A stretch of DNA of 64,000 nt, taken from contig PAQY01000008.1 in assembly GCA_002709955.1 (NCBI GenBank), positions 30,472 to 94,471 on the forward strand. The letters run 5' to 3'. The first letter of the stretch is position 1; each line of letters starts with the position of its first letter. Positions 26,441 through 37,307 of this stretch are shown piece after piece. Under the pieces are notes generated by a model, which worked only from the letters and a program-made list of their open reading frames with translations, searched no databases and had not been told where the DNA came from. The DNA is from Rhodospirillaceae bacterium (lineage in GTDB: Bacteria > Pseudomonadota > Alphaproteobacteria > UBA8366 > Aestuariispiraceae). The translations under genes were made by a program, and so were the position numbers.

Positions 26441-27361
26441 CTATTTCCAGGGACCGCCGACGACCCATTTACACTCGAGCGGCTTATCGACGACGAGTGA
26501 CTGGACGGGTGGCAAAACAAATGCTGACACCTTGGTCTGCATCTCAACGAACGACCCTGGTGCGATGGAAAGGGCTGTTCTGCGAAGAAATCCCTGCCAT
26601 TGTGCCCGCTTCGCGGCGTCTTCGGCAAAGGCTGGCGTCAGCGCGACGGGCGTCTCCACAGGGATGGTCGTGTGGCGGCGATCAAAGGTCGCTGCGATTG
26701 CATCCGCGAGGATCGATCCATCGAAGGCAAACGTCTCCGAGATCGCCCAGAGATCGAAGAAATCCTTCATGCGGCTGTTGAGCATGCCGAGTGCGACCAG
26801 CGCCTGGAACTTCTCGGCTACGACCGTCTCTGGCGGATAGGCGCGTAATCGCGGCGCTGGCATGTCGAGTAGCGAGGGATAGTTGATTTCCAGCACTGCC
26901 GGGGTCACGGCATCGCCAAATCCGATGTCGATCTGGATAGGCAGGCGCGCACCGGCGATCTCGGCGGTCATGGTGATCCGGACGCCGCTATACTCGTCTT
27001 CAGCCCGGGCCGGCTCGGCCTGCAGGGTTTCCGGCTTGAAGACCACGCCGTCGTCCTCGACGTCGATCCCGCAGACCGCGCGGAAGTTAGCAGCAATCCG
27101 CTCCGGCGACGCATCGCCATATCCCAGAAGATCGAGATCGCCGGTCGCTCGATACGGCGTGGGTGTCCAGAGACTGAACAGCATGGCACCCTTGAGGACG
27201 AATTGATCTTTGTGGGGCGACAGACTCAGCCGGTAGAGAAGTCGTTCGATGGCGAAACGGGTCAGCGCAAGCTGAACGTTTTCCTTGCGCTCACGGGCAG
27301 CGTGAGTGAGTCGTGCACGGACCGAGGCGCCGACATTCTTGAGGGGTGGCTTCGGGGTCAC
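26441..27361 (-). CDS. AbiEii-type nucleotidyltransferase toxin
   Basis: FVLKGAMLFSLWTPTPYRATGDLDLLGYG; VVAEKFQALVALGMLNSRMKDFFDLW. Confidence 0.88.
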   Translation of the reverse strand: MTPKPPLKNVGASVRARLTHAARERKENVQLALTRFAIERLLYRLSLSPHKDQFVLKGAMLFSLWTPTPYRATGDLDLLGYGDASPERIAANFRAVCGIDVEDDGVVFKPETLQAEPARAEDEYSGVRITMTAEIAGARLPIQIDIGFGDAVTPAVLEINYPSLLDMPAPRLRAYPPETVVAEKFQALVALGMLNSRMKDFFDLWAISETFAFDGSILADAIAATFDRRHTTIPVETPVALTPAFAEDAAKRAQWQGFLRRTALSIAPGSFVEMQTKVSAFVLPPVQSLVVDKPLECKWVVGGPWK

Positions 27362-27972
27362 AGGGTCGCCTCGATATAGGGCCGTATGACATTCTGCACG
27401 CGGTCGATGGCAGCGAAATGCCAGAGGTCGTCAATTGTGGCGCGGCGGTTTCGGATACAGTCTCTCAGCGCTTCGATAGCGACATCGAGACCGATCTGGT
27501 TGCGGTATTTGAAGCAGTCTGCAACCGTCTTGGCCGGATTGGTGATGGGGACGTCTACCTGCTCGATTGTATGAAACGTCACACCGGCCGTCAGGGCTTC
27601 GCCGGTGGCGCGCATAATACGGAGGGATACAGGCGGGTTCTTCGGTGCCCATTTCTTGTGACCGATCAGCATCCAGACCTGATGCGGCAGTTGGGTCGTG
27701 AGTTCGTGGAATCTGAGCGCGGAGAGCAGGCAGATGGTGCCATGGGGCACTGTTCGGCTGGCTTCCGCAAGGCTATGAGACTCGGACCATTCCGCATCGG
27801 CAAGCTGATAGAGACCGCGCCCCATGCGCACCAGAAGCCCCTGATCCTGCAGTCGCCGCAGATAGGCACGGGGAACGCCCCCTGCATCGAAATCGCGGGC
27901 GCGCGCGATGCCGCGTTCCCTGGCGATTGTCAGCGCGCGATCCTTCAGCGTTCCTTGGGTCGGTTCAGTCAT
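27358..27972 (-). CDS. AbiEi-type antitoxin (wHTH)
   Basis: GVPRAYLRRLQDQGLLVRMGRGLYQL; ITNPAKTVADCFKYRNQIGLDVAIEALRD; overlaps toxin start. Confidence 0.85.
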   Translation of the reverse strand: MTEPTQGTLKDRALTIARERGIARARDFDAGGVPRAYLRRLQDQGLLVRMGRGLYQLADAEWSESHSLAEASRTVPHGTICLLSALRFHELTTQLPHQVWMLIGHKKWAPKNPPVSLRIMRATGEALTAGVTFHTIEQVDVPITNPAKTVADCFKYRNQIGLDVAIEALRDCIRNRRATIDDLWHFAAIDRVQNVIRPYIEATL

Positions 27973-28132
27973 GTTCCTTAAACTCGGCAATAGAATGTAA
28001 GTGCCAAGCTTTAGTATCATCATCTGCGATCCTCCGCAACAGGAGCCGGGCACCACAATGACAAGTATGGTGGTCATATGTGATACTTTCCAACGTCTGG
28101 TCGGCAGCCATTGGGAAAGGACACGTCCATCC

Positions 28133-29023
28133 TCAATACAGAACAACCTGGCAAATCGACAGACTTTTACCATTCGTTGCCTGGATCGTTCGCACGATAC
28201 TGAGGCAGGGGAACGGGGTAGGGCCATGATTGGCGTATTTGCCCCTGTAGGCCAGTTCTATCCGATAAAGACTATCCAGACGCTCTGGAGCGACCGCCAG
28301 AAGGTTCGTCAGGATTCGGGCATTGGCGCTGGTCGCGGCACGCACAAGGTCGAGCCCCGGCCGCTGTAGCGCCGCCACCGTTTGCAGCAGATCGCGGCCT
28401 TCCCGGGTGCCCAAATACTCGATTGTCGTCTTGTCCAGGTCGGCGCGCTGTTCCGGTGTCAGTGAAAGCAGCCAGCGTAACAGTGTTGGTGCGTTCCCAA
28501 CTGCCGTGACGGCGTCGTTGATCAGGACAAGAACCGGACCGATCTTGGATTCAGGTAGGTTGGCGATATGACGAACAAATATCTGGATGGCACCATCCTT
28601 GCCGATCAGAGCCTCGTCCTTGAGGCCTGTCCATTCCGGCAGATAGTGGCGCCATTGCGTGCCCTCGACCGGTCGATCCAGATTCATCGTCAATGCCATG
28701 GCCTCGTTGGAGAGACCCAGCCGGGCCTCCAGTTCCGGTTCTGACAGATCGAAGCGATCCAACCCAATGGCCTGCAATCGTTTGAGAATCTGTCGTTCGC
28801 TTCCGCTCATCGCACGGAGATTGTCCAGATGATCGGAAGGAGGATGTAAACTCCATATGACCGCGCCGAGCGAGCAGGCGCCCAGTACAAAGCTCCCGAC
28901 AAGGAGACCCAACAGCCGTCGTGATTTTGTCCGGACACGCGTGACGAACTCCTGCTGGGCTTCTGACGCTGCCATCCGCAGCGGAACGGGCATTTGACTA
29001 TTCATCACCGCCTCCCTGCTCAA
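28133..29023 (-). CDS. Hypothetical single-TM protein of the mobile module
   Basis: Long ORF overlapping the upstream ParA-like ORF; TM LLGLLVGSFVLGACSLGAVIWSL. Confidence 0.6.
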   Translation of the reverse strand: MSREAVMNSQMPVPLRMAASEAQQEFVTRVRTKSRRLLGLLVGSFVLGACSLGAVIWSLHPPSDHLDNLRAMSGSERQILKRLQAIGLDRFDLSEPELEARLGLSNEAMALTMNLDRPVEGTQWRHYLPEWTGLKDEALIGKDGAIQIFVRHIANLPESKIGPVLVLINDAVTAVGNAPTLLRWLLSLTPEQRADLDKTTIEYLGTREGRDLLQTVAALQRPGLDLVRAATSANARILTNLLAVAPERLDSLYRIELAYRGKYANHGPTPFPCLSIVRTIQATNGKSLSICQVVLY

Positions 29024-30486: not shown

Positions 30487-31128
30487 TCACATCTCGAAAT
30501 CATCGCGCACGCGCCGACGCTTTTTGCGGGGTGGTGTTACTGGGCGAGGGGGTTCGAAGGGGACAACGGGCGGCGGAGGCGCCTCACTCTTGACCTCTTC
30601 CTTTTTGACCTCATTGTCCGAGGCGACTTCAATCTCCATCTCGAACGGACAGGCTTCGTTAAGCCGCTCCCGAATGCGGTGCATGGAAACGCTTCGCCCT
30701 GTTTCAGGAGAGGGAAGGGCGATAACGGCATGGAGATGGACCGATGGGGTACTTGCTGCAGCCGGAATGTTTGGTTGATGGAAGGCCAGAAGGGTCACTC
30801 TATCCGTTACGCCAAGCGCATCCGTCGCAGCGAAGAACGACTGAATCAGGGTATCCTTTGTATCTTCCAGATACCGGCCTTCCTCCGCTCGGGAGGGAGA
30901 GAAGGTGAGGTGCAGGACCGTGTGCTTCAGGTCGTCGCGAGTCTTCGATATTTCCGATACGATCTGCATGGCCTCAGAGGCTTTCATGGGCCCCAGTACC
31001 GATAATCCACTGTTCAGCAGATAGATGTCCGTGACTTTGGTATCGTCCTGATCGTCATGGGCTCCTGTACGGAGCACATAGCGCAATACATTGGCGGCGG
31101 TCCGCCCGCGTGTTTCACGGGTGATCAT
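30487..31128 (-). CDS. Small relaxase-like protein
   Basis: ITRETRGRTAANVLRYVLR, VLHLTFSPSR, SVHLHAVIAL; Pro/Lys-rich tail. Confidence 0.5.
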   Translation of the reverse strand: MITRETRGRTAANVLRYVLRTGAHDDQDDTKVTDIYLLNSGLSVLGPMKASEAMQIVSEISKTRDDLKHTVLHLTFSPSRAEEGRYLEDTKDTLIQSFFAATDALGVTDRVTLLAFHQPNIPAAASTPSVHLHAVIALPSPETGRSVSMHRIRERLNEACPFEMEIEVASDNEVKKEEVKSEAPPPPVVPFEPPRPVTPPRKKRRRVRDDFEM

Positions 31129-31558
31129 GATTGTTGATCCTTTCTATGATGGTCGCGACAAGGCGCGGGTGTGGGGTGTTCGGTGGTGGCAGCACATGGG
31201 GATCCAGCACGGAAGCGATTGACCCACCGCCCGTTCGTGCACGGTTATGACGTTTGATGAGTGTGGCCGCGTGGATCAGTAGCGTTCGGGCAAGCTCGCT
31301 GTTCTCTTCGTCGGCTTTGCCAGATACGACAAGAGAGTGAGCCGCCCGAGTAAGGACAATAGTATCGGCCATTGAATGGTGCCTGGCATTCTGCCGTGAC
31401 TGCAATTTCCCAGATGAGCGGCGTTGCTTTGAGCTGCTTTGGCCCAAAAGCATCCATTCTATAACTTCTGTGCGGGAGCAGCCTTGCTCAATACAAAGCA
31501 ATTCCAGCGCAGCTAGTGCGTCCGAGGACAGCCGAAAACTTGTTGGATTGCGGGCCAT
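31115..31558 (-). CDS. Ribbon-helix-helix-type accessory protein (MobC-like)
   Basis: FRLSSDALAALELLCIEQGCSRTEVIEWML; overlaps the relaxase-like ORF start. Confidence 0.5.
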   Translation of the reverse strand: MARNPTSFRLSSDALAALELLCIEQGCSRTEVIEWMLLGQSSSKQRRSSGKLQSRQNARHHSMADTIVLTRAAHSLVVSGKADEENSELARTLLIHAATLIKRHNRARTGGGSIASVLDPHVLPPPNTPHPRLVATIIERINNHDHP

Positions 31559-31562
31559 GCCG

Positions 31563-31772
31563 CTAGCCCGCCGTGGATGTACGTCTTTGCTTTTCGAGCC
31601 ATTCAAGCAAGTCGTTGGCGGAGTAGCGAATGGCTCGGCCACCTACTCGAATAAAAGGAGGGCCATCACTTCTGGTAACGCGCCAATTGGCGAGAGTTGA
31701 TTTTGATATTCCAATTATCTTGGACACTTCAGAAGGCGTATATAAAACACCCATTTGAACATTCTCATTCAT
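31563..31772 (-). CDS. AlpA/excisionase-like helix-turn-helix protein
   Basis: LYTPSEVSKIIGISKSTLANWRVTRSDGPPFIRVGGRAIRYSANDLLEWLEKQ. Confidence 0.85.
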   Translation of the reverse strand: MNENVQMGVLYTPSEVSKIIGISKSTLANWRVTRSDGPPFIRVGGRAIRYSANDLLEWLEKQRRTSTAG

Positions 31773-32119
31773 AGCGGAAGTCCCTTCTGTTGAGAGACTT
31801 TACGCAATATCAAATGCTAACAATCAAAACTACCGAATAATTCAATATAAAATTAGAATTATTCGCAAAATATCAAATATAAAATTAGAATTATACGACA
31901 AAATTGAATTTTATTGATATGAAATTAAAAATTTTTCTTTGGTAAAGGTGTGAATACAACAATATATACTGACAGTTAACCTAGGCCATACCTAAGTCAG
32001 GGAATGGAGGCGAATAGTACTTTACTTGATGGGTGAGAGTGGACTACCGATTTCGAACTGCTTTGTGAAACTTTGGTCGTTAGGCCGCCACGCGAGTGGC
32101 CGATACAGCGATCCAGGTT

Positions 32120-32426
32120 ACTTTTTTGAGTTGGCGGCATGTTGATGGATGCGCACTGAGGTGCTGTCGGTCATCTGGATATCGCCGTCATAACCTGCGG
32201 GCAATCCGATGCTGAAGCCACCGCTCGTGCGAACGCCAAAAGCCCTCGATCCGCGCCAGCATCGACCATGTTTTTGCACACCAGAAGAACCGCTATAGCT
32301 TGTTCATTCGAACCATCAAGATCAAGCGGGCCGACGTGATACTGACCTCGGCAAATCTCACCTACAATATGGATCGACTGATCTTCCATGAATGCCGACG
32401 AATTGCAGGATCAGTCTGCCCCTGAT
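32120..32426. mobile_element. IS5 family transposase remnants in opposite orientations
   Basis: minus 32120-32190 DGDIQMTDSTSVRIHQHAANSK; plus 32258-32426 SIDHVFAHQKNRYSLFIRTIKIKRADVILTSANLTYNMDRLIFHE. Confidence 0.75.
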
Positions 32427-32601
32427 CGCAGATCCTAACCCGACCGACACCAAAACCTAAGCGTTGGAACTCAAAAACTGATACTTCAAGCCGTCAGGCT
32501 GAAGATCGCATGATCCATTTAGCAAAATTGTTGGGTTAATGCGGATGTCCAGCTTGGAGCAGTAGGAGTAATTTGAATTACAGCTTTTCATACATAAACC
32601 C

Positions 32602-33594
32602 TCATTTTCCATCTTTAGGTAAAGCTTTTTCTTCGAGCATTTTTTTTGCCGTTTCAACATGCGATCGGATGGCAGAAGAACTAAATCCTTTATAGTATGT
32701 GTTAAAAAGAATTATAGTATAGTGATTTATGCACTTCTCAATCTCACCATTTTCTTTTAATTTTTCCATTACTTTCATTAATGCTGTTTTATTTCTAATA
32801 TGGTCAACAGCATTGTTCTTTTCGCCTTTATTTACACGTATTGCGCCGTTCTGTGAGAGCATGTCTAGAATTCTACGCTCTTCTGTGGTTAAATTTACAC
32901 CTGAGAATGGATAATCTAATTTACTCGTATTCTCCGTCTCTTGCTCTTTGTTTTGGGATGCAATGGTATCGTGTTTTGTATCGACCCTATCAGAGTTTTC
33001 GATTTGATTGACCGCCTCTGCATTACGGGCATTTACTGTAGATTCGGAATGGCGTTCACCAGTACGCTTGTAAATACAAATCCAAGAATATAGCGCAGTT
33101 TCTAAGGCGAGATCATCACATCTTATTTCAATTGTTCGTAATGAAGTCGCGGATTTGTCCGTTAATATTACCATCGTGGGAATACCAAAATTCTTCTTAG
33201 TTTTTAGTATCCTAATTTTATTTCGTTCATGCTTATGTAACCAACCATTTACTATTAGGTAAACAATCTGTTTATTTTTTGATAAACTCTCCAAGGCAAT
33301 ACCATTGCCATTTTGATCAACGGTCCATTTTTCTCTAGAAATACCAGATTTACGAATGCTCCACTGGAAGAGAAAGTGCCTGCTCATAAAATACACAGAA
33401 GAAAGAGATCCTATTGCAAACAAAAGTGGAAAAAATGCTAAAGCTACCATTGCATTGTGCGGAGCAAGGAAATTACTTGAGTATATTGCGAATACTATCG
33501 GTGTTGCGGCCAGGACAATAGCCGAGTTAAGAAGTGGTGTCTTCTCGAACGTATTTGGAAAGTAGAACTCAAAATTTTGTGGGACGCGAAACAT
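32602..33594 (-). CDS. AT-rich orphan membrane protein
   Basis: 330-aa ORF with two N-terminal TM segments; no recognised family. Confidence 0.65.
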   Translation of the reverse strand: MFRVPQNFEFYFPNTFEKTPLLNSAIVLAATPIVFAIYSSNFLAPHNAMVALAFFPLLFAIGSLSSVYFMSRHFLFQWSIRKSGISREKWTVDQNGNGIALESLSKNKQIVYLIVNGWLHKHERNKIRILKTKKNFGIPTMVILTDKSATSLRTIEIRCDDLALETALYSWICIYKRTGERHSESTVNARNAEAVNQIENSDRVDTKHDTIASQNKEQETENTSKLDYPFSGVNLTTEERRILDMLSQNGAIRVNKGEKNNAVDHIRNKTALMKVMEKLKENGEIEKCINHYTIILFNTYYKGFSSSAIRSHVETAKKMLEEKALPKDGK

Positions 33595-33759: not shown

Positions 33760-33816
33760 ATGAGTTTGAAGTCCGCTTGTTCTCTCAGGATGCAGGGAGA
33801 TGGATAGAGATACTTT
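33760..33816 (-). repeat. 57-bp perfect inverted repeat, left copy
   Basis: Reverse complement is AAAGTATCTCTATCCATCTCCCTGCATCCTGAGAGAACAAGCGGACTTCAAACTCAT. Confidence 0.95.
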
Positions 33817-33885
33817 GAGATGGCAACGCCCTGCACCCGGTTGATTGGTTGTGTTACATTGAGTTGCACTGCGCATGACCTCGAG

Positions 33886-33903
33886 TGCTTACCCTTGCTT
33901 ACC
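33886..33903 (-). repeat. GGTAAGCA pair (10-bp period)
   Basis: tgcttacccttgcttacc. Confidence 0.75.
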
Positions 33904-33915
33904 TAATTTTGAGAT

Positions 33916-34110
33916 TCAATCGGCGGGTGGCTTCTTGCTCACAAAGGACTCTGTTGTAACCATTTCTGTTTCGCCGTCTTTCTTGGTTAGCATGAAGCCA
34001 CCGGTAAATTGGCCGCTGGCACTGCGGTAATGCCCTAAAGCCACGATGTTTTTGTGAGGGTTAGTTTCTTCTGGCTTGTCGTCCTTAGTCTGATCATCAT
34101 CACCGTCCAT
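33916..34110 (-). CDS. Small hypothetical protein beside the integrase
   Basis: MDGDDDQTKDDKPEETNPHKNIVALGHYRSASGQFTGGFMLTKKDGETEMVTTESFVSKKPPAD. Confidence 0.5.
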   Translation of the reverse strand: MDGDDDQTKDDKPEETNPHKNIVALGHYRSASGQFTGGFMLTKKDGETEMVTTESFVSKKPPAD

Positions 34111-34286
34111 GGAACATCTCCTGTTTTTGGCTAAGGGTTGATCCGAAAAACTGGTGGCTGTCTGAGAGTTGAAGCTGCCTTTGGCACTTCGACATGCAAT
34201 CCTGCCTTCAGCCAACCTGTAAACTACCACAGATTACAGGATTTTACCGTGTCATCGCTATATAATTGCCTCCAACAGCTTGATCA

Positions 34287-35492
34287 TCAAAGCACCGCTT
34301 TGGGACGCATAATGTCTCCGACCAATACCCCCACCTTGTCAGATGCATCCCGAAGCGGATCTTGAGATAGATGGGCATATGTAGACGTGGCCGACATGGA
34401 CCGATGGCCCAGCAATCCGCCAATAACAGGAAGCGATGCTCCAGTTGTTACGCCGAAGCTTGCAAAAGAATGGCGCAGGTCATGTATACGAACATCGTCC
34501 AAGCCAGCTCTTTTCCGAATCCTGCGCCATGGCTTTTGCAAATTGACCAGGGGTGCATTTTTTCTGAGCCCTGTGATCACATAGGGGTTTTCTGGGTCAC
34601 GGGGTATCTCCTTTAGAATATCGAGCGCAATCGCATTGAGAGGAAGTGCCTTTATGCCGCTAACATCTGTTTTGTGTTCGCGCAGGATAAGCAAACGTCG
34701 ATCCCAATCGATATCACTCCAGCACATGTTTATGATTTCACCGGATCGTGCGCCGGTTACGATTAACAGGCGGATCGCCCCTGCAACATGCGGTGAGATA
34801 AGACGTTCATTCTCGCTGTCATCAATTGCTTTCGCCAGCCTGGCAAGCTCTTCCCGGGAGAGGAACCGCTGGCGCTTCTTTTCTCTGAATGGGCGGATGG
34901 ATACTGCTGGATTGCCACCCTTTTCCAACAAGCCCCACAACTCGGCATGTCCCAGCATGGCCTTTAGAAGTCCAAGGACCCGGTTTGCGTTGTAGGGCGT
35001 ACCTATTAAGGATTGGTGTAGATGACCAATATCAGCACTGGTCAGTTCGGAAAGTAGAAACCGTCCCATTTTTGGCAATATGAACTTATTCAGCAGCCAG
35101 TTGTGCGCTTCGATGGTTGACGGCTTGCAGCGTCCCTCACAGTGCTCTTGCATGTACCGGGCTGCCAGATCTGCGACTGAGTTCTCGTTTCGCTTGCGCA
35201 GGCGATCTGCTCGAGGGTCTCTACCCCGGCTCGATGCGCTGAGAAGGGTTCGGGCTTCGGTCCTGGCTTCCTCCAGTGTCATTATGCCAAAGCGGCCAAT
35301 CGTATGGCGGCGTGATTTGTTGTATTCATTGCGGTACTGGATCATGAAACTCACCGTGCCCGACGGTTTAACCCGAATGCCAAAGCCTGGCATCGTGGTG
35401 TCCCATGCAACGATCTCCTGACCTTGTATGCGGGCCGCTTCACGTGTCTTATCGATCGTGGCCTTGGCGAGCTTTGACATTACTCCCTCCAT
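34287..35492 (-). CDS. int: Tyrosine-type site-specific integrase
   Basis: LLIVTGARSGEIINMCWSDID, IHDLRHSFASFGVTTGASLPVIGGLLGHRSMSATSTYAHLS (R..HxxR..H..Y). Confidence 0.95.
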   Translation of the reverse strand: MEGVMSKLAKATIDKTREAARIQGQEIVAWDTTMPGFGIRVKPSGTVSFMIQYRNEYNKSRRHTIGRFGIMTLEEARTEARTLLSASSRGRDPRADRLRKRNENSVADLAARYMQEHCEGRCKPSTIEAHNWLLNKFILPKMGRFLLSELTSADIGHLHQSLIGTPYNANRVLGLLKAMLGHAELWGLLEKGGNPAVSIRPFREKKRQRFLSREELARLAKAIDDSENERLISPHVAGAIRLLIVTGARSGEIINMCWSDIDWDRRLLILREHKTDVSGIKALPLNAIALDILKEIPRDPENPYVITGLRKNAPLVNLQKPWRRIRKRAGLDDVRIHDLRHSFASFGVTTGASLPVIGGLLGHRSMSATSTYAHLSQDPLRDASDKVGVLVGDIMRPKAVL

Positions 35493-35494
35493 TG

Positions 35495-35513
35495 GGTAAG
35501 CAATAGGTAAGCA
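35495..35513 (+). repeat. GGTAAGCA pair (11-bp period) just upstream of int
   Basis: ggtaagcaataggtaagca. Confidence 0.75.
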
Positions 35514-35591
35514 AGATATCTGTATCTTGAGCCATCATGGTGTGACATGGTCAATCATCGAGTCAATAAAAAAGATAATGATATCAATAAG

Positions 35592-35648
35592 AAAGTATCT
35601 CTATCCATCTCCCTGCATCCTGAGAGAACAAGCGGACTTCAAACTCAT
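35592..35648 (+). repeat. 57-bp perfect inverted repeat, right copy (att-proximal)
   Basis: AAAGTATCTCTATCCATCTCCCTGCATCCTGAGAGAACAAGCGGACTTCAAACTCAT. Confidence 0.95.
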
Positions 35649-35688
35649 AACCTGAAGGTCGTAGGTTCAAATCCTACCCCCGCAACCA
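35644..35688 (+). other. 3' portion of an initiator tRNA(fMet)-like gene, anticodon loop to CCA; probable attachment site
   Basis: CTCATAACCTGAAGGTCGTAGGTTCAAATCCTACCCCCGCAACCA; CAT anticodon, T-arm GTAGG-TTCAAAT-CCTAC; no matching 5' half upstream. Confidence 0.8.
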
Positions 35689-37288: not shown

Positions 37289-37307
37289 GGTAAGCAATTG
37301 GTAAGCA
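37289..37307 (+). repeat. GGTAAGCA pair (11-bp period), outside the tRNA end
   Basis: ggtaagcaattggtaagca. Confidence 0.7.

Follow-up and report, generated by a model that had tools for sequence, protein, structure and literature searches.

The right end of a mobile element lies within a 64,000-nucleotide stretch of Rhodospirillaceae bacterium DNA (the window). The element has integrated into a gene for initiator tRNA-fMet, at the anticodon loop, and carries a third attachment arm. The extra arm is a second, inverted P arm located 1.8 kb inside the element, beyond the tyrosine integrase gene (int). As judged by sequence comparison, the P-arm pair is real, conserved in a clade of related elements, and evolving in concert.

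An Inverted P-Arm Pair at the attR Junction

In a repeat search, positions 33760-33816 and 35592-35648 form an inverted repeat of 57 nt that is 100% complementary, with a gap of 1775 nt between the copies. A genome-wide sequence search finds no further occurrence of the full 57-mer in the 4.23-Mb genome. An earlier note on this DNA had described a perfect 57-bp inverted repeat at exactly these coordinates, with homology stopping at a tRNA anticodon loop and with an integrase gene and a small ORF between the copies, and each of these observations is confirmed. The right copy (35592-35648, plus strand) is the P arm of attR for the tyrosine integrase. The tract common to both copies runs through ...CAAACTCAT and ends in CTCAT, with which the anticodon loop begins. 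The displaced 3' half of the tRNA, from the anticodon loop to CCA (CTCATAACC...CCA, 35644-35688, plus strand), lies at the element boundary beside int and constitutes the attR junction; the same segment is found in full tRNA-fMet genes. Where the genome has the target tRNA in full, it is encoded as tRNA-Met(cat) directly behind 23S and 5S rRNA, which identifies the target as initiator tRNA-fMet and its anticodon loop as the point of insertion and crossover. The left copy (33760-33816, minus strand) is the inverted internal arm; it ends in the left half of the core (AAACTCAT), after which the sequence is unrelated.

Between the two arms, the minus strand encodes a 401-aa tyrosine integrase (34287-35492) and a 104-aa ORF (33916-34230) without a Pfam or NCBIfam family. 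The integrase has an arm-binding domain (Arm-DNA-bind_3, PF13356, 1.7e-13) and a catalytic domain (Phage_integrase, PF00589, 2.9e-22). Residues R249, K274, H337, R340, H363 and Y372 are invariant in the integrase alignment, and we take them to be the R-K-HxxR-H-Y catalytic residues. On the same strand, the first gene outside the internal arm is a 330-aa ORF of no family (32602-33594). It is followed by an AlpA/excisionase-like HTH protein that is a candidate directionality factor (HTH_17, 31563-31772, minus strand), by a ribbon-helix-helix protein in the MobC position (31115-31642, minus strand; RHH_1 at 20.3 bits, just below the cut-off of 20.5), and by a relaxase-like protein (30487-31128, minus strand). 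The latter scores 21.4 bits for PF03432, below the cut-off of 24.6, which is exceeded by the relaxase of the related element L048 (34.0). The region between the 330-aa ORF and the HTH gene (∼32080-32440) resembles insertion-sequence debris, and this debris may explain why mobC lies as far as ∼2 kb from the internal arm in the window. No promoter signal beyond chance was detected at the internal arm. The cargo region includes an ORF with an AbiEi antitoxin-type domain (27358-28227; PF13338, 3.3e-11).

Arm-Type Sites and an Incomplete Internal Core

Across the integrase family, the region just upstream of int often contains direct repeats of ∼7-9 bp with a spacing of exactly 11 bp, and such repeats are present at some junctions also shortly past the CCA of the tRNA 3' half. 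Their sequence varies with the integrase, and we infer that they are arm-type integrase sites. In the window, the presumed arm-type sites of the P arm (GGTAAGCAATAGGTAAGC, 35495-35512, plus strand) are directly upstream of int. Those of the internal copy (GGTAAGCAAGGGTAAGC, 33887-33903, minus strand) are inverted and about equally far from the core. Specifically, GCTTACC occurs twice in the internal copy, beyond the 57-bp tract and 125-135 bp from the half core, compared with 134 and 145 bp in the attR arm. Outside the clade described below, such an internal GCTTACC copy is unsupported as a family-wide trait. Spacing is nearly always exactly 11 bp at integrase loci such as L076, L143, L144 and L191, where integrase-dependent repeat sequences include GGTAAGCA, TGGAAGCA, GGAATCA and GGTACCA, among others. 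This co-variation of repeat and integrase is possibly a code that links the arm-binding domain to its site.

The 18-mer GGTAAGCAATAGGTAAGC recurs at position 545 of contig C21 of the same genome (G000), near another tRNA-fMet 3' half. This occurrence is presumably the P' arm and a plausible left end of the element, such that presumed arm-type sites of one sequence are found at both ends. The matching left end spans C21:452-562, and the last 119 bp of C21 are identical to the first 119 bp of C7, the contig of the window. An alternative left end at C7:92 was set aside because its presumed P' arm carries TTTGGGAGTAA repeats rather than GGTAAGC. Pairs of GGTAAGC separated by 3-5 bases occupy four sites in the whole genome (the P arm, the presumed P' arm with the same 18-mer, the internal copy, and an unexplained site at window position 37289), and a reversed control pattern gives none. 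The last of these, an extra GGTAAGCAATTGGTAAGC pair at 37289-37306, lies 1.6 kb to the right of attR with no recognizable tRNA fragment alongside, and is possibly a remnant of another element end.

In all five elements that carry the pair, the internal copy has the presumed arm-type repeats and the left core half-site, but its core is incomplete, with overlap bases 6-7 and the right half-site absent. The internal overlaps read CTCATCC, CTCACCG, CTCTCCG, CTCACGC and CTCATGC, versus CTCATAA for the complete core. Owing to these missing parts, the internal arm is predicted to bind integrase without completing strand exchange.

The Pair Recurs Within One Integrase Clade

Outside the genus, scans with the window integrase located the nearest relatives of this enzyme. 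Among them are four divergent clade members at about 48-54% identity, each accompanied by its own perfect inverted P-arm pair, of 50 bp in L048, 32 bp in L049, 48 bp in L192 (located in a 3.98-Mb contig) and 44 bp in L191. The search of relatives proposed in the earlier note thus recovers the identical pair in a near-identical element of genome G004 and pairs of different sequence in four divergent clade members. In the four relatives, the attR P arm is matched by an inverted copy beyond int; these pairs, like that of the window, end at AAACTC in the anticodon loop, and the gene order is P arm, int, ORF, HTH gene, inverted P arm, mobC-type gene and relaxase. Across the five elements the copies flank int at a spacing of 1.8-2.8 kb, and the orientation is the same in all six sequenced copies. 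L048 and L192 have orthologous internal sites: their HTH-to-mobC interval aligns at 62% and int at 84%. In a decaying remnant (L196) attR is gone, and the half core and a hairpin still stand in front of mobC.

The clade (support 100/100) comprises the window integrase together with L048, L049, L191, L192, L193, L194 and L195, and the pair is present in five of the seven scorable members. L193, from genome G479, was left unscored, having no tRNA junction and a short contig. No repeat is found in L194 and L195. We rejected the pair as a general trait of fMet elements or of this integrase family, because no comparable repeat was found in other fMet elements of the genus or among ∼120 homologues outside the clade (34-46% identity), some of whose loci are short. 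Viral contigs, plasmids and phages yielded no clade members and nothing above 47% identity.

Could the second copy be an assembly artefact, given that this genome and most of those of the relatives are draft or metagenome assemblies? Contig C49 of G004, from another species of the same genus, contains this 2-kb region, in which both arms match at 100%, within 16.8 kb shared with the window element at 99.97% identity. Identical pairs are therefore present in two assemblies with different flanks, and an analogous pair resides within the 3.98-Mb single-contig sequence G520:C1. We rejected this explanation, to which we assign a negligible probability; the second copy, which the earlier note had flagged for such a check, is real.

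Further tRNA-fMet 3' halves with different left flanks were also observed in G000 at C7:92-136, C2:206715, C10:16812, C11:42002 and C21:452, and in G004:C49. These many 3' halves mark initiator tRNA genes of the genus at which elements with several different integrases are inserted in tandem or nested within one another. At C7:92 in G000, nothing separates an internal tRNA-fMet 3' half from the TTTGGGAGTAA end beyond it, whereas the same 3' half in G004 is followed by a further ∼10-kb element (C49:7846-17796); the two represent empty and occupied states of a secondary site. Both ends of G004:C49 (66,270 bp) fall inside the window element, with another fMet element between its right and left ends, a layout like that of a tandem array, or of a composite circle after excision.

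The Two Arms Evolve in Concert

Within each of the five elements the core-proximal 32 bases of the two copies have no mismatches, whereas between elements they differ at 3-18 positions. The between-element mismatch matrix is identical for the attR copies and the internal copies, and the four positions that distinguish L048 from L192 in the attR arm also distinguish them in the internal one. Outside the tract, the two sides of one element have little in common except the arm-type repeats. Their spacing from the half core is similar on the two sides, and in L048 and L192 the internal repeats have changed jointly with those of the attR arm, though the internal match there is approximate (GATTCCC versus GATTTCC).

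From these patterns we infer that the arm copies exchange sequence through homogenizing recombination. Because many positions vary between elements, arm-to-arm copying would account for the identity, and not selection on fixed binding motifs alone. The design recurs, the copies stay identical within elements, and the arm-type repeats are kept at about the right distance, all of which argue for a maintained feature. Most likely, the copies are kept in step because the second copy still has a job.

Alternative Explanations for the Repeat

The earlier note described the structure correctly, as well as the way it is tied to the att core, and suggested that the repeat could be a relic of a second attachment event or bound an invertible int cassette. 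In the latter case, recombination between the arms would flip the int segment, altering the orientation of int (and in relatives also of the HTH gene) and keeping the arms identical. A recombinase gene between inverted repeats does recall known invertible cassettes and the archaeal pTN3 integrase, for which inversion of DNA between homologous repeats down to 104 bp in length has been reported (PMC5495485). Long perfect inverted repeats lie 1.8-2.8 kb apart around int in five elements, and their concerted evolution indicates sequence exchange between copies. Yet the repeat here is shorter than 104 bp, no second orientation is seen among six of six sequenced copies, and integrase-mediated site-specific inversion should be blocked, since the internal site has neither overlap bases 6-7 nor the right half-site in five of five elements. 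RecA-type inversion across the identical 32-57 bp is possible. Overall, integrase-driven inversion is unsupported by these data, and we regard the cassette as unlikely, if the least so of the rivals considered here. A neutral relic, left by a past integration, a template switch or an element fusion and identical merely through chance conversion, would explain why the copy ends within the att core, where integrase would cut, and conversion between ∼50-bp repeats needs no function. Such a remnant fits poorly with a design shared by five clade members, at matching positions in the four outside the window, with copies that are identical within and divergent between elements. The conserved, co-changed arm-type repeats, the zero mismatches in five of five elements, and the half core retained in front of mobC in the decaying L196 also count against it. 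We consider this origin improbable.

More improbable still, in our estimation, is that the internal arm is part or a mimic of oriT, with inverted copies annealing in single-stranded transfer DNA to give a homogenized, double-stranded P arm. The position of the internal copy in the four relatives, just upstream of a mobC-type gene, is a common location for oriT, and GC-rich hairpins follow the internal copy in L048, L049 and L196. Nevertheless, no common nic-like motif was recognized by eye, the hairpin is absent from L191 and from the window, and in the window mobC is ∼2 kb away.

A Possible Role for the Internal Arm

The explanation that we tentatively favor, at slightly less than even confidence, is that the internal arm offers the integrase and/or the candidate HTH directionality factor an additional docking site, which heads the mobilization genes and is kept identical by recombination between copies. 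Placed like an operator at the head of the genes leading away from int (a mobC-type gene in the relatives; in the window the 330-aa ORF and, beyond it, the HTH, RHH and relaxase-like genes), an occupied site might link excision to expression of the mobilization region, and the int segment might be looped out. Changes in one arm would be copied to the other by recombination of the inverted copies, either RecA-type or initiated by integrase at the core and followed by branch migration. Consistent with docking, both repeat-less clade members also lack the HTH-mobC-relaxase block next to int. Counting against it is the window itself, where the gene next to the internal arm is the 330-aa ORF and not mobC; the proposed link is weaker here because this ORF and the insertion-sequence-like debris separate the internal arm from the HTH gene.

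It is conceivable, though doubtful, that integrase itself drives the copying by nicking the half core, starting an exchange between attR and the internal arm, and, with the mismatched overlap blocking this exchange, resolving it after branch migration through the arm. One arm would then be continually rewritten from the other, and the int cassette would sometimes be flipped. If true, this would be a self-templating spare attachment arm.

Relation to Known Integrative Elements

The window element resembles integrative mobilizable elements whose tyrosine integrase targets a tRNA anticodon loop. It has an arm-type integrase beside attR and a displaced tRNA 3' half, its presumed P and P' arms bear direct arm-type repeats at a spacing of 11 bp, it encodes HTH, mobC-type and relaxase-like proteins, and insertion at one tRNA is in tandem. 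It is unlike them in having an additional inverted internal P arm identical to the attR arm; we found no report of an inverted second attachment arm in the literature searched. In ICEMlSymR7A, RdfS binds attP and its own promoter, which heads an operon upstream of oriT and rlxS (PMC11963761). There too an HTH directionality factor gene lies near the relaxase gene, and its product occupies the att region as well as a promoter at the head of transfer genes, a dual binding that we postulate by analogy here. The regions bound in ICEMlSymR7A have no obvious common motif, in contrast to the tract of 32-57 bp that is duplicated exactly, and inverted, in the present elements.

The usual picture of an attachment site is one P and one P' arm around a core, and the present clade adds a third, inverted, co-evolving P arm near mobilization genes. 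This arm suggests a route by which occupancy by integrase or directionality factor may be coupled to transfer functions. It also provides a natural case of concerted evolution in short attachment DNA, and makes testable how an integrase and its arm sites might change together without loss of function, as a spare arm could template the repair of the other.
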